Below, piece after piece: positions 42,757 to 49,725 of a DNA stretch of 59,983 bases. Position 1 is the stretch's first letter. Each line of letters begins with the position of its first letter. The stretch is taken from NCBI GenBank assembly GCA_002729765.1, contig PBYV01000006.1, positions 1 through 59,983 on the forward strand, read 5' to 3'. The notes beneath the pieces were generated by a model. That model made no database searches. It saw only the letters and a list, made by a program, of their open reading frames with translations, and was not told where the DNA came from. The position numbers and the translations under genes were made by a program. This DNA comes from Acidimicrobiaceae bacterium (lineage in GTDB: Bacteria > Actinomycetota > Acidimicrobiia > Acidimicrobiales > MedAcidi-G1).

Positions 42757-44154
42757 GTGAAGTACGTAAGTACAAGAGGTTCAGCGCCAGAAAAAAACTT
42801 TAGTGGAGCTTTGCTGACAGGTCTCGCCGATGACGGAGGTCTATACGTTCCAGACGAATGGCCAACATTAAAAGGTTCAGGTAGTGGCGACTATTTAGAA
42901 ACAGCCTTTGAGGTTATGAACCTTTTTACAGCAGAAAGTCTTAATCAAGAAACGTTAAAAAAAATTATAGATGAAGCCTATAAGTCTTTCGATGCGCAGG
43001 AAGTTGTTCCTTTAATCGAATTAGATGAACAACTTTTCTTGATGGAATTATTCCATGGGCCCACTCTTGCATTCAAAGATATAGCCCTCCAACTGGTTGG
43101 TGGGCTATTTGATTACGAATTAAATAACCGAGGAGAGCATCTTACGATCGTAGGGGCAACTTCTGGGGATACAGGTTCTGCGGCAATTGAAGCTTGTAAA
43201 GATCGTCAGAATCTAGACATCGTGATTCTTCACCCTTCGGACAGAGTTTCTGAAGTGCAACGGAGACAGATGACTACAGTCGATTCTTTCAATGTTCATA
43301 ATGTTGCGATTGAAGGAACTTTCGATGATTGTCAAGACTTGGTTAAAGCGATGTTTAATGATCTTGAATACAGAAACAAATTGAGATTAGGTGCTGTTAA
43401 TTCAATTAACTGGGCGAGGGTCATGGCTCAGATCGTTTATTACGTGGTGGCTTCAGAAAGATTGGGTTCACACGATCAGCCAGTAATCTTTTCAGTCCCA
43501 ACTGGAAATTTTGGAAATGTATTTGCTGGCCACGCGGCGCGAAATTGTGGTCTAAACATTCCCAAATTATTGGTTGCAAGCAATAAAAACGATATTCTCA
43601 CTCAATTTTTTACTTCAGCTGAAATGAAAATTGACGAAGTCATACCAACCCTTTCTCCAAGTATGGATATTCAAATCTCATCTAATTTAGAAAGACTCAT
43701 TTTCGAATTATTTGAAAGAGACGGGACGAAGGTAAAGAACCTTTTAGAAAAGTTCCGAGCCGATGGAAGCGTTAAAGTCGACTCTGATACCGAAGCCAAG
43801 TTCTCCAATAGTTGGGCAGCGTACAGTTTCGATGATGAAGAAGTAATCAAGTGCATTTCTTCAGAATCAGAAAGATCAGGCGTTATTCTCGACCCTCATT
43901 CTGCAATAGGGGTTTTAGCTGCCCGTTCTCATCGAGATAAACAAATCGATCCTGAAATTCCAATTGTTTCTTTGGCTACGGCACATCCAGCTAAATTTCC
44001 CAAAGCAGTCGAAAGAGCATTGGGGGACTGTCCACCTCTTCCAGATCGTCTAGCGGATTTACACGAGCGTCCTGAGTTCTTTACCCGACTGCCGAATGAT
44101 TTAGAAATCGTGAAAGATCACGTGACCAGTTGCTCCAGAATAGATGAAAAATAA
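42757..44154 (+). CDS. thrC: threonine synthase
   Basis: PLP enzyme that turns O-phosphohomoserine into threonine. PLP lysine K107 in HGPTLAFKDIALQ, then VGATSGDTGSAAIEAC and VPTGNFGNVFAGH. The 465-residue length is that of the long (E. coli/yeast-like) type. I chose the GTG at 42757 because AAGGGG lies 5 bases before it; a TTG at 42739 overlapping the hom stop would add six residues. Its substrate must come from a homoserine kinase, but no thrB of the GHMP type follows. Confidence 0.95.
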   Translation: MKYVSTRGSAPEKNFSGALLTGLADDGGLYVPDEWPTLKGSGSGDYLETAFEVMNLFTAESLNQETLKKIIDEAYKSFDAQEVVPLIELDEQLFLMELFHGPTLAFKDIALQLVGGLFDYELNNRGEHLTIVGATSGDTGSAAIEACKDRQNLDIVILHPSDRVSEVQRRQMTTVDSFNVHNVAIEGTFDDCQDLVKAMFNDLEYRNKLRLGAVNSINWARVMAQIVYYVVASERLGSHDQPVIFSVPTGNFGNVFAGHAARNCGLNIPKLLVASNKNDILTQFFTSAEMKIDEVIPTLSPSMDIQISSNLERLIFELFERDGTKVKNLLEKFRADGSVKVDSDTEAKFSNSWAAYSFDDEEVIKCISSESERSGVILDPHSAIGVLAARSHRDKQIDPEIPIVSLATAHPAKFPKAVERALGDCPPLPDRLADLHERPEFFTRLPNDLEIVKDHVTSCSRIDEK

Positions 44155-45340
44155 TGAAGATGAAAAAGATTCTTGTCAGGATCAGAAAAGTATGAAATAT
44201 GTGATTTGCGTGCCAGACGGTTGTGCTGACTTACCAGTTCCGGAACTCGACGGAAGGACTCCTTTAGAGGTAGCTAATATGCCAAATCTTGACTCTCTTG
44301 CTGCTAAAAGCATTTTAGGCAGGGCAGAAGTAATTCCAAGTGGCATGCCTCCGGGAAGTGATGTAGGCAACATGTCGATTTTTGGCTACGACCCAAGTCA
44401 ATATCACACAGGGCGAGCCCCGATCGAGGTTGCTGCGCTTGGAATCAAATTAAGGCCAGATCAAACGGCGTTCAGGTGCAATTTTGTGAAAGTAGTTGAT
44501 GGAGTGATGATTGATTATGCAGGCGGAAACCCTTCTTCAGATGAAGCTGAGAAGGTTATTGCTCAATTAAATCGAGAATTAGGAAATCCTGACGAGGGTA
44601 TTTCCTTTTTACCAGGTGTCAGTTTTCGAAACGCAATGATCGCCCCTATGGATTTCGTTGATGCGGTTTGTGTACCCCCACATGATTTAACAGGTGATCC
44701 AGTTGTATTGCCTTCTGGGAGATCAGGACAAAAAATTTCTGACCTTATGGCTGCATCTGAAGAAATATTGGCCGCATCTAATTTAGAGGCAACGGGGATT
44801 TGGTTATGGGGTCAGGGAACGCAACCCCAATTGCCATCATTTAGTGAAGTCAATGGAGTGAATGCAGGTTTAGTCACAGCAGTTGATCTTGTTAGAGGTA
44901 TTGGGAAGTTAGCCGAAATGAAAGTATGCGATATTCCGGGTGCAACCGGTTGGTATGACACAGATTATGAAGGGAAGAGAGATATGGCTCTAAGAGAGTT
45001 GGAGGGCGGTTTAGACTTATTCATAATTCATGTTGAAGCTACTGATGAAGCTGGTCACGCTGGAAATGTTGAAGCTAAAGTCGAATCTCTCGAAAATTGG
45101 GATAGCCGGATTTTGAAAGGGTTGATTTCCGGCTTAGAGGATTTAGGACCATGGAGAATGTTGATGCTTCCTGATCATGCAACTCCTTTGACGCTTCGGA
45201 CGCATACGCCTGATCCCGTTCCTTATCTCCTGTTTGATTCAGAAAAAGATTCGGATGGTGGTGTTTTCACTGAGATTGGCGTTTCGGAGATGCCTTTGAC
45301 TCAGGGGTATCAGCTTATGAAAGCTCTTTTAGCCAACTAA
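44144..45340 (+). CDS. ApgM-like phosphoglycerate mutase homolog, proposed homoserine kinase
   Basis: A 398-residue alkaline-phosphatase-superfamily protein of the archaeal cofactor-independent phosphoglycerate mutase type. Metal-site motifs are visible: CVPDGCADLPV, PSGMPPGSDVGNMSIFGYDP (Ser of SDVGN), FIIHVEATDEAGHAGNVEAK and LMLPDHATPLTLRTH. A subgroup of this family found beside thrC has been proposed as homoserine kinase. It overlaps thrC by 11 bases if translation starts at 44144; an ATG at 44192 is a likely alternative. A terminator follows. Confidence 0.8.
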   Translation: MKNNEDEKDSCQDQKSMKYVICVPDGCADLPVPELDGRTPLEVANMPNLDSLAAKSILGRAEVIPSGMPPGSDVGNMSIFGYDPSQYHTGRAPIEVAALGIKLRPDQTAFRCNFVKVVDGVMIDYAGGNPSSDEAEKVIAQLNRELGNPDEGISFLPGVSFRNAMIAPMDFVDAVCVPPHDLTGDPVVLPSGRSGQKISDLMAASEEILAASNLEATGIWLWGQGTQPQLPSFSEVNGVNAGLVTAVDLVRGIGKLAEMKVCDIPGATGWYDTDYEGKRDMALRELEGGLDLFIIHVEATDEAGHAGNVEAKVESLENWDSRILKGLISGLEDLGPWRMLMLPDHATPLTLRTHTPDPVPYLLFDSEKDSDGGVFTEIGVSEMPLTQGYQLMKALLAN

Positions 45341-45594: not shown

Positions 45595-47262
45595 ATGGAC
45601 TCGACTGAGTTACAAAGCGATTCATTGGAAGCCAAAGGGCGAGATGAACTTATTACAATTGCCACGGCTTTAGGAGGGAAACCTGCTTCACGTGCCAGAA
45701 AAGCGGAGATAGTTGAGTTGATCCTTGATTTGGCTTCTGGAGGTACTTCCTCTTCGACTTCAAAAACTGAAGAGTCGGAAAAAGAGACAACTGCAAGTGA
45801 TCAAGAAGCAACCACTACAAAAGATCAAGAAGAACCGCCAGCTGATTGGGAGGTTGCTCTCAAGAGTGAGAATGAAGTTGAGGAAGAGATCAAGGACGAC
45901 GATTCCAGCAAAGACGACGATTCCAGCAAATCTGTGAAACCTGAAACTTCGAGTAATGCTAGTAGTAGCAGAACATCTTCAAGTAGAGATTCTGAATCAA
46001 GAAGTTCTAGCAACAATCGAGAAAAACGTAGTAATGAATTCACGGAACCAGGAAACCGCCGCCGCCGCCGCCGTGGTAGGCCAGATGGCCAAGATGATTC
46101 CTGGGATGGTGAACCTGTTTCGATAGAAGGTTATTTGGACTTACGTAATGAAGGTTATGGCTTTTTGAGAACAACAGGATTCCGCCCTTCAAAACAAGAC
46201 GCTTATGTATCCGTGAAACAGGTCAAGCAATTTGATCTTCGACGCGGAGACTACTTGGTTGGTAGGGCAAGGCCGGCAAATAGAAGTGAAAAAAACCCTG
46301 CTTTGTTGAGATTAGACACTGTAAATGGGAACCCGCCCGAAGATGCGCTGAAACGTCCTCATTTCGAAGATCTGACACCTCTCTTTCCAGATGAACGGTT
46401 AAACCTCGAATTAGCTGCTGACCCATCTAATATGACTGCTCGCATCGTTGACCTGTTATCCCCAATAGGTAAGGGACAAAGGGGCCTTATCGTCTCACCG
46501 CCGAAGGCTGGTAAGACAACAATCATGAAACAAATCGCTAGATCAATAGAGACAAATAACCCTGAAGTTAAATTGATTGTATTACTAGTTGACGAAAGAC
46601 CTGAAGAAGTCACTGATATGAAAAGGTGGCTTATGAAGGGTGAAGTTGCCGCTTCAACTTTTGATAGACCGGCTGAAGAGCACACTGCTATTGCCGAAGT
46701 AACCATAGAAAGAGCTCGAAGACTTGTTGAATATGGTGAAGACGTAGTGATCATTCTTGATGGAATCACACGATTAGCTAGAGCATATAATTTGGCCGCT
46801 CCAGCGACAGGCCGAATCATGTCTGGTGGTGTTGATAGTGGGGCTTTGTATCCGCCAAAGAAATTTTTTGGTGCTGCTAGAAATGTTGAAGAAGGTGGCT
46901 CTTTGACTATTTTGGCCACAGCTTTAGTGGAAACAGGATCAAAGATGGATGAAGTAATTTTCGAAGAGTTCAAAGGAACAGGAAACATGGAGCTTCGTTT
47001 GGACCGAAGAATAGCTGAAAGACGCGTGTATCCCGCTATTGACGTGAATGCCTCATCAACTCGTCATGAAGAACTCTTATTTGATCGCAAGCAATTAAAC
47101 CAAGTGTGGAAATTAAGACGAGTTTTAAATGGTTTAGCATCTGACGGGGATAATGGTTCAGGCGCAGGCCTGGAGCTACTCATCGATCGACTAAAGACTT
47201 TTCCTAATAATGACGAATTTTTGGCAGAAGTTGCTAAAGGTCCGTCAATTGAAGCTTCTTGA
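45595..47262 (+). CDS. rho: transcription termination factor Rho
   Basis: RNA-dependent helicase, 555 residues. N-terminal [17 protein letters not shown] resembles the Rho N domain. Residues about 52-172 are a hydrophilic insertion: Ser/Thr/Asp/Glu-rich, with a DDDSSK repeat, then a stretch of six arginines ([10 protein letters not shown]). The RNA-binding domain follows with [18 protein letters not shown]. The ATPase core has Walker [10 protein letters not shown] (301-309) and Walker [18 protein letters not shown]. Actinobacterial Rho proteins commonly carry such insertions. Confidence 0.96.
45895..45930 (+). repeat. perfect 18-base tandem duplication inside rho
   Basis: GACGACGATTCCAGCAAA occurs twice head to tail (45895-45912 and 45913-45930), encoding DDDSSK twice in the hydrophilic insertion of Rho. 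The copies are identical, which suggests recent slippage; the reading frame is kept. Confidence 0.9.
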
Positions 47263-47603: not shown

Positions 47604-48593
47604 TTGCCTTTAGACGAAGAACAACGGTTATCTCTAAACCGAAGTAAATTACGAAAAATTCTTTCCGGAGAAAAGAGTCAAGAACTCGGAAATTTGACTG
47701 ATGCCTCTGGAAATGGAATTCGGAACAATTCGACCTTATGGATAATAGCTGACGAAGAAACCCCAGAAAGCCTGTTGGGTGCCTCTCTCCTAGAGTTAAC
47801 CACTCAGGGTGAACTTGACTTGATTATCTTTTTTGAGAACTTGCAAAACGCTCAAATAACACAAAGACGGGCGAGTATTTTGAATCCACCACCCAGCATT
47901 TTCTTCCTTTCTGATGGAGAGCCTATTTCTGTGGAACCTATCGCTATCGAAGCTAGAGACAGTGTGCAAACTGCGCCTTCTGAGTTTGACGAACTATGTT
48001 TGAAATTTGGACTGCAATCAATTTGTGAGTGTGGGACATGGAAGGGTGAGATTTTAGGACTTGAAGTAATGAGAGTTACCAATGGGGAAATTGAAGTGGG
48101 AGTTGGGAAGTTCGACCGCGAAGCTAATTCACTAATGGGTAGCGGCAGACCTTTATCAGAAGTTCTTGCATCAGCAGTAGAAATTGTGAGTTCTTCTCGA
48201 AATCCAGAGTCTGGGTTCCATCCACTATCGAGACTCGCGCGAGAAAGATGGCTTAGAGCAGATGCCTTAGCTGATCCAGAAATGTTCGGTTTTGAAAATT
48301 TGACTTGCGTTGACCCACCCAGAGAAAGGGAGTCATTACGTGAGACAATGCCAGCAGCAGCAATCGGTATTGACAAGATGGGCGAAAGGGTTCTTATTGT
48401 TTTCTCAGTTGGTGTTGATATTTGCCTGGTTTCATTTATTGCAGATCTAATTTTGATTGAACGACCGGACCGTGTTGAAGTGGTACTTCCTGAGAAAGAT
48501 ATTTTAGTTCCGGTGGAAAAATGCCTTAGCTATTTAGATGTTCCTTTAAGTATTAAAGGGGTTGCAGGAGGATGGGAAACACCAACTGTTTAA
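47604..48593 (+). CDS. unrecognised protein between rpmE2 and prfA
   Basis: A 329-residue soluble protein I cannot assign to a family. The start is TTG, 30 bases after rpmE2. The second half has HPLSRLARERWLRADALADP, DPPRERESLRETMPAAAIGI and the hydrophobic strands RVLIVFSVGVDICLVSFIADL, suggesting an alpha/beta domain; the protein ends SYLDVPLSIKGVAGGWETPTV. No signal peptide, membrane helix or known catalytic motif is seen. Its location in the rho-rpmE-prfA-prmC series suggests a link with translation, but that is inference. Confidence 0.7.
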   Translation: MPLDEEQRLSLNRSKLRKILSGEKSQELGNLTDASGNGIRNNSTLWIIADEETPESLLGASLLELTTQGELDLIIFFENLQNAQITQRRASILNPPPSIFFLSDGEPISVEPIAIEARDSVQTAPSEFDELCLKFGLQSICECGTWKGEILGLEVMRVTNGEIEVGVGKFDREANSLMGSGRPLSEVLASAVEIVSSSRNPESGFHPLSRLARERWLRADALADPEMFGFENLTCVDPPRERESLRETMPAAAIGIDKMGERVLIVFSVGVDICLVSFIADLILIERPDRVEVVLPEKDILVPVEKCLSYLDVPLSIKGVAGGWETPTV

Positions 48594-48657
48594 ATTGTTT
48601 TTTGTGTAAAAGTAGAATGCGATATTGCAGCAAGTCACATACCGGTACCCTGAATTA

Positions 48658-49725
48658 ATGATCGATCAAGTAAAAGCTTTGATTTCCGAGTTTGAAGATG
48701 TTGAAAAACGACTAGCTGAACCTGAGGTTGTTTCTGACCCTAAGTTATTAGAAACTCTTGGTCGAAGGCATAAAGAGTTAGGAAATGCTCTTTCAGCTGG
48801 ACGACCTCTTCAAGCCGCATATGAAAATCTTGAGACCGCAAAAGAATTGATGGATGTTACTGAAGGTGATGAACGTGATCAGCTTCAAGAGGAATTAACA
48901 GAATTAAAGACTGAGATTGCAGAATTAGAAACCCAGTTACGCGTTTTCTTGTTGCCACAAGACCCGAATGACGGGAGAACAGTAATCATAGAAATTAGAG
49001 GTGCAGAGGGTGGAGAAGAAGCTAATCTTTTCGCACGCAATCTGAGAGACATGTATGTAGCTATTGCCACCACCAAAGGGTGGACCGTCGAACCTCTTGA
49101 GAGCAAAGAATCTGATATGGGTGGATTCACAGAAGTGGTGTTTTTAATTCGAGGTGAAACAGCTTGGACTAACTTAAAACACGAAGGAGGAGTTCATCGT
49201 GTTCAAAGAGTGCCCGTCACTGAGACTCAAGGGCGCGTGCATACATCATCTGCAACTGTGACCGTCTTGCCGGAAGCAGATGAAGTAGAGATAGCTATAG
49301 AAGAAAAAGATTTACAGGTGGATGTTTATAGGTCGTCTGGTCCCGGTGGACAGTCGGTCAACACTACAGATTCAGCTGTTCGTATTACTCACCTACCAAC
49401 CGGTTTAGTTGTAACTATGCAAGATGAGAAAAGTCAACTTCAGAACAAAACAAAAGCTTTACGTGTTCTAAGAGCCAGATTGTTCCAGATCGAACAAGAA
49501 CGTCAACAGTCAGAGGCGGCATCAGCTAGACGAGATCAAGTAGGTGGTGGCGGAAGATCAGAAAAAATAAGAACGTATAATTTTAAAGAAAATCGGGTTA
49601 CTGATCATCGAATAGGGCTTACGCTGCACCGCTTGGACAGGATTCTCGCAGGAGACCTTGATGAGGTTGTCGAAGCTTTACTCATAGCAGAAAGAGATCG
49701 ACAACTAGCTGAGAGTTTTGATTAA
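48658..49725 (+). CDS. prfA: peptide chain release factor 1
   Basis: RF1 terminates translation at UAA and UAG. The catalytic GGQ is in SSGPGGQSVNTTDSAVR, and the codon-reading tripeptide region is VPVTETQGRVHTS. The 355-residue form from the ATG at 48658 (MIDQVKALISEFEDVEKR) matches the usual start; a TTG at 48625 would add 11 residues. It is followed directly by prmC, whose product methylates the GGQ glutamine. Confidence 0.95.
   Translation: MIDQVKALISEFEDVEKRLAEPEVVSDPKLLETLGRRHKELGNALSAGRPLQAAYENLETAKELMDVTEGDERDQLQEELTELKTEIAELETQLRVFLLPQDPNDGRTVIIEIRGAEGGEEANLFARNLRDMYVAIATTKGWTVEPLESKESDMGGFTEVVFLIRGETAWTNLKHEGGVHRVQRVPVTETQGRVHTSSATVTVLPEADEVEIAIEEKDLQVDVYRSSGPGGQSVNTTDSAVRITHLPTGLVVTMQDEKSQLQNKTKALRVLRARLFQIEQERQQSEAASARRDQVGGGGRSEKIRTYNFKENRVTDHRIGLTLHRLDRILAGDLDEVVEALLIAERDRQLAESFD

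Follow-up and report, generated by a model that had tools for sequence, protein, structure and literature searches.

The window analysed here, a 59,983-nucleotide stretch of an Acidimicrobiaceae genome, raises the question of what is encoded by an open reading frame lying between the genes for ribosomal protein L31 and release factor 1 (RF1), and of what its position says about its function. A first-pass annotation had described it as an unrecognised gene in a fixed-looking place and had guessed at a lineage-specific translation factor. The gene (47604..48593, + strand; hereafter X) comprises 329 codons plus a stop and encodes a protein with three predicted domains and no family name. Its TTG start is the sole listed start codon at or upstream of the homologous region and lies 30 bases past the L31 stop (47573), and its stop lies 64 bases before the likely RF1 start. 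The neighbours were as annotated: rpmE, encoding a type B 50S ribosomal protein L31 (47313..47573, + strand; NF002462, 116.8 bits, cut-off 86), and prfA, encoding RF1 (48658..49725, + strand; TIGR00019, 474.5 bits, cut-off 423). The listed prfA frame begins with a TTG at 48625, and the ATG at 48658 is, from the sequence, the likelier start. The most constant neighbour of X, rho (45595..47262, + strand), lies upstream, and prmC and a threonylcarbamoyladenylate-synthase gene are found past prfA. Elsewhere in the window, positions 44144-45340 encode a phosphoglycerate-mutase-like protein (TIGR00306 above its cut-off; TIGR02535, "proposed homoserine kinase", below its cut-off), which occupies the place in which one might expect a homoserine kinase; we take the adjoining frames to be homoserine dehydrogenase-like and threonine synthase-like. 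Comparison of X with four close relatives gave dN/dS values of 0.27, 0.13, 0.18, and 0.17, indicating purifying selection, and prfA gave about 0.04 for three of the same four relatives (start located by script). X is thus not a chance reading frame, given dN/dS of 0.13-0.27 and homologues in 43 of the 48 genomes of the family (single-sequence search); it is a genuine gene, evolving faster than RF1.

The lack of any known motif was borne out by the searches. X had no match at E ≤ 1 in Pfam or NCBIfam, none at E ≤ 10 among PDB sequences, and none at E ≤ 0.001 in a viral structure library; a profile search of the PDB returned only unrelated proteins, at E 0.52 and 0.85. When 53 relatives were compared with Pfam, PHROGs, PADLOC, and NCBIfam, nothing convincing was obtained: the few matches (best E 0.0023) hit one member each, except for one PHROG that hit two, and none of the relatives matched PF01939, the NucS family, at E ≤ 0.1. 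Pfam found no RF-1 domain in X, and prfA, used as a comparison, matched RF-1 at 2.9e-42. Literature searches returned nothing jointly covering Acidimicrobiia, rpmE, and prfA, nothing jointly covering MedAcidi-G1 and "hypothetical protein", and, for an EndoMS pseudonuclease, a single listed paper, on Can2. Judged by sequence, the family is described by none of the libraries searched. The comparison behind this statement covers those libraries; PMC5962788 names, as accessions, 26 proteins that mark the class or subgroups within it, one of them 351 aa long.

Relatives of X were found mainly in one order, so the gene is lineage-specific, as had been proposed. Among 148 genomes drawn from the order, 84 carried a relative by single-sequence search and, likewise, at least 84 by profile search. 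Wider profile searches gave matches in at least 49 of 197 genomes sampled from the class (mostly with a completeness of 90% or more), the listed matches falling in the same order with two exceptions, and in at least 16 of 296 genomes from the phylum, where all the matches listed came from that order; the profile-search counts for order, class, and phylum are lower bounds that may miss distant relatives. One of the two exceptions (G256) proved to be a threonine synthase (TIGR00260, 304 bits) and was rejected, as were weak matches in several non-carriers to frames in the vicinity of hom/thrC (two of these frames matched thrC). Two relatives from other orders are credible, one with the gene order L31-X-prfA (G223) and one about 1.9 kb upstream of prfA (G254). 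Among 159 relatives from named genome records, the best 80 were retained; these were mostly titled Acidimicrobiales, Acidimicrobiia, or other actinobacterial names and included the marine actinobacterium MedAcidi-G1. Three contigs with an Acidimicrobiales-type X operon are labelled Bifidobacterium breve (L106, L136) or Acidobacteria bacterium (L130) in their records, and these labels look wrong. Viral contigs gave 39 pattern matches, none of them a relative. The family has apparently been inherited vertically and occurs mainly in one actinobacterial order (Acidimicrobiales in named records). Neither of the two findings that would have spoken against the first-pass annotation was made: no family gave a confident match, and the gene is present in close relatives.

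The surroundings of X were surveyed in the same best 80 of 159 named loci, and the place of the gene was indeed largely fixed. L31 adjoined X in 77 loci (69 with L31 within 400 bases upstream and eight in which the chosen X start overlapped L31). The three misses comprised a contig end (L091), an L31 gene 4 kb away (L110), and a locus in which 2.6 kb yielded no L31 (L125). Downstream, prfA lay within 400 bases in 67 loci; the other 13 included three contig ends, four with prfA farther off (433-1593 bases), and six (L094, L119, L122, L124, L128, L129) with ATP-synthase genes instead, namely atpA in five and subunit A in L119. In these six, rho was still upstream, and the 4.5-5 kb available downstream of X yielded no prfA. 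In the order, rho and X shared a contig and strand in 75 of 84 carriers, and in 72 of these 75 X began within 1 kb of the end of the rho match; in the other three, it was 4-11 kb away. The remaining nine carriers had no rho match (four), rho on another contig (four), or rho on the opposite strand (one). Six genomes had rho followed by X with no L31 found between them. Among the genomes of the rho survey without X, 49 of 56 had L31 and prfA in the stretch, with match starts less than 450 bases apart in 43 of the 49, which leaves no room for X. X is thus a cassette that is either present in or absent from a conserved operon, and its closest tie is to rho. It is probably expressed as part of the rho operon.

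This arrangement bears on two readings of function. The first casts X as a partner of the transcription termination factor Rho or as a modulator of it, a role that the close adjacency, kept without an intervening L31 or a following prfA, would suit, as would the signature insertion that the accessible part of PMC5962788 reports in the Rho of this class. However, 56 of 64 X-lacking genomes had a rho match, so Rho does without X; the three distant carriers and the one with opposite strands also speak against a partnership, and operon order may last without functional coupling. We consider this reading improbable. The second is the lineage-specific translation factor of the first-pass annotation, for which the position of the gene in most carriers, flanked by L31 and RF1, would speak. 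In raw counts, type B L31 was also commoner in carriers (41 type A and 28 type B, against 42 and 10 in non-carriers; Fisher p 0.017). On a rho tree, however, X showed no association with L31 type (likelihood ratio 4.6, p 0.33; a control pair), and the raw association illustrates how large an effect kinship by itself can have. The tie to L31 and prfA is loose rather than obligatory, X was not found in 64 of the 148 order genomes (at least 84 being carriers), rpmE usually leads directly into prfA where X is lacking, no release-factor match was obtained, and the predicted fold, described below, is of the EndoMS type. This proposal finds little backing other than the position of the gene, and we regard it as very unlikely; a site between L31 and RF1 need not imply a role in translation. 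Among the rho survey loci (L222-L356), L31 was cysteine-bearing in 83 genomes and cysteine-poor in 38.

With no confident family match, structure prediction was the more informative approach. AlphaFold gave a confident three-domain model (pLDDT 91.6, pTM 0.90) from an alignment, A2, of 79 rows, comprising the window sequence and 78 of the 80 loci (two were removed by a length and coverage filter). The N-terminal domain (about residues 1-111; 47604..47936, + strand) has a weak PD-(D/E)XK-like fold, with the best match at Z 6.9 (2okf). Several PD-(D/E)XK proteins matched it at Z 5.5-6.9, which may amount to no more than a common arrangement, and EndoMS/NucS, which has a DNA-binding domain at its own N-terminus, was absent among the structural matches listed for these residues. 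The middle domain (about residues 112-211; 47937..48236, + strand) consists of a helix, four strands, and two helices and has no clear known fold. Predicted alone, it reached pLDDT 84.1 and pTM 0.75; its best structural match was at Z 5.7 and its best Foldseek match at E 0.37. The C-terminal domain (about residues 212-329; 48237..48590, + strand) adopts an EndoMS/NucS-type PD-(D/E)XK fold in the model. An hhalign comparison of the N- and C-terminal domains gave a probability of 5.9%, and the possibility that they arose by duplication is suggestive only, as far as the sequences go.

The C-terminal domain provides the clearest connection to a known protein. Residues 213-324 of the predicted model aligned to EndoMS (5gkj_B) with Z 11.2 and rmsd 2.4 over 101 residues at 18% identity. 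The three best structural rows were all EndoMS/NucS (Z 11.2, 10.0, and 9.8 over 98-102 residues), followed by the first unrelated row at Z 7.5, and EndoMS was also the top Foldseek match for X, with a probability of 0.94 and an E of only 0.045; Foldseek rows for HIV integrase and reverse transcriptase were dismissed for low probability and large rmsd. Comparison of the C-terminal domain with NucS by hhalign fell in the structural register without being significant (probability 0.8%, E 0.073); the full-length X profile settled on a different short stretch (0.9%), and the middle domain gave 2.0%. Common descent of this domain and NucS is therefore likely but unproven, and we conclude from the model that it is related in fold, and probably through descent, to the EndoMS/NucS nuclease domain. 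In EndoMS, the metal is coordinated by Asp165, Glu179, and Lys181, according to the accessible text of PMC7680126. The corresponding stretch of X (48357..48407, + strand), mapped from the structural range, the hhalign register, and the EndoMS sequence, has A252, V266, and S268. Asp or Glu at 252 or 266, or Lys, Arg, Gln, or Glu at 268, occurred in none of the 53 rows of a second alignment, A1, and in none of the 79 rows of A2, one of which was unreadable there. Given this mapping, X is without the metal-binding triad and, consequently, most likely does not cleave DNA as NucS does.

Residues elsewhere in X were strongly conserved. A1 was made from 53 of the 57 best loci (four were dropped before alignment), gathered without the GVGxxDREA pattern. 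The A2 rows were collected with a pattern covering it, so their conservation at that motif is partly a product of selection. In A1, the invariant positions were E142, E149, G152, L153, E154, R157, G166, V167, G168, D171, R199, H206, W216, R218, P225, G270, and P296. The core signature spans residues 154-174 (48063..48125, + strand) and reads E-x2-R ... GVG-x2-DREA, preceded by G152-L153. E142 and E149 were lost in the most divergent relatives (G128, G254, G223), all three of which keep ten residues, G152, E154, G166, D171, R172, R199, H206, G270, D272, and D299, and have E or D at position 214. Conserved sets of charged residues of this kind are typical of catalytic or ligand sites. X might be an active enzyme in which E154, D171, R172, R199, H206, E/D214, D272, and D299 form a new active site between the middle and C-terminal domains, with the nuclease fold merely a scaffold. 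This is a serious alternative that we nonetheless find rather doubtful, in view of the lack of a convincing family match for X.

The likeness to NucS led to the question of whether the two genes occur together. NucS (PF01939) was present in 80 of the 148 order genomes, including that of the window, where it is on another contig and X is in the rho operon. Both genes were found in 65 genomes, X only in 19, NucS only in 15, and neither in 49, so that 34 genomes depart from the pattern (Fisher odds ratio 11, p 4e-11, which ignores kinship). Nine of the 11 NucS-bearing surveyed genomes without X had a cysteine-poor L31. On the rho tree (132 tips), which is a gene tree that includes some Rho copies only about 50% identical to that of the window, dependent evolution of X and NucS was favoured over independent evolution with a likelihood ratio of 17.8 (p 0.0013). 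The value depends on the fit: 17.8 came from a longer optimisation, and the short fit used for simulations gave 10.2, which was reached in 0 of 111 simulations of independent evolution. Two genomes (G079, G162) were scored as carrying X from position and gap length. Neither was found by the filtered profile search (E ≤ 0.01) or with the divergent relatives, although the G079 frame reached E 4e-4 in an unfiltered profile search; without the two genomes, the short fit gave 22.6. The stricter independent-pairs test had only 3-5 supported pairs, too few for adequate power. NucS and L31 type also showed a weak correlation on the tree (9.65, p 0.047), so lineage effects exist. The co-occurrence suggests, short of proof, that X and NucS share a process.

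MutS (TIGR01070) matched none of the 148 order genomes and 11 of 14 control genomes. At the thresholds used, 68 of the 148 showed neither NucS nor MutS, the search being confined to these two mismatch-repair enzymes. As given in the accessible text of PMC5290159, Ilumatobacter coccineus (Acidimicrobiia) is among three NucS-bearing species outside the class Actinobacteria within the phylum. Given this background, X could be a second component of MutS/MutL-independent (NucS) mismatch repair, an EndoMS-derived protein with a dead nuclease that regulates NucS, targets it, or partly replaces it where it is missing. We rate this specific version as a slim chance. If X does aid or replace NucS, it would bear on the low mutation rates of bacteria without MutS/MutL.

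The reading we tentatively favour, at somewhat less than even confidence, is broader: X may be a retooled, non-cleaving, NucS-fold accessory protein that acts on nucleic acid. Judged from the model, a helper acting on nucleic acid is a likelier role for X than a translation factor, because its predicted C-terminal domain resembles a mismatch nuclease without the cutting residues. Two PD-(D/E)XK-like domains would flank a middle domain without a clear known fold, and the retained NucS-like scaffold would grip nucleic acid or a nuclease partner. E154, D171, R172, R199, H206, E214, D272, and D299 would make up the working surface, and X would probably serve alongside NucS as a genome-maintenance accessory factor. 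X then represents a family without a name, open to structural work, whose members have apparently converted the fold of a repair nuclease into a non-cleaving module.

Among known systems, the N-terminal domain of X resembles the fold of other PD-(D/E)XK proteins (XisH, PaqCI, Can2, and Card1) at Z 5.5-6.9, and with Z below 8 this likeness may be only a common arrangement. The middle domain has a weak likeness to YdhG/DUF1801 proteins (2oc6 and 9t2w, Z 5.7 and 5.3), with an identity of 7-8% that is too weak for a claim of kinship. EndoMS/NucS (PF01939; PDB 5gkj, 5gke, 2vld) differs from X in its catalytic D/E/K, which X does not have, and in lacking the two further domains of X; there is no significant sequence-profile match between them, 65 of the 84 carriers of X also encode a separate NucS, and NucS copies from the order keep visible catalytic motifs, unlike X. 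What the two have in common is the fold of the C-terminal domain, over about 100 residues at Z 9.8-11.2, and, in a helix, the E-x10-P spacing, in which E132 and P143 of EndoMS correspond to E214 and P225 of X with identical spacing.
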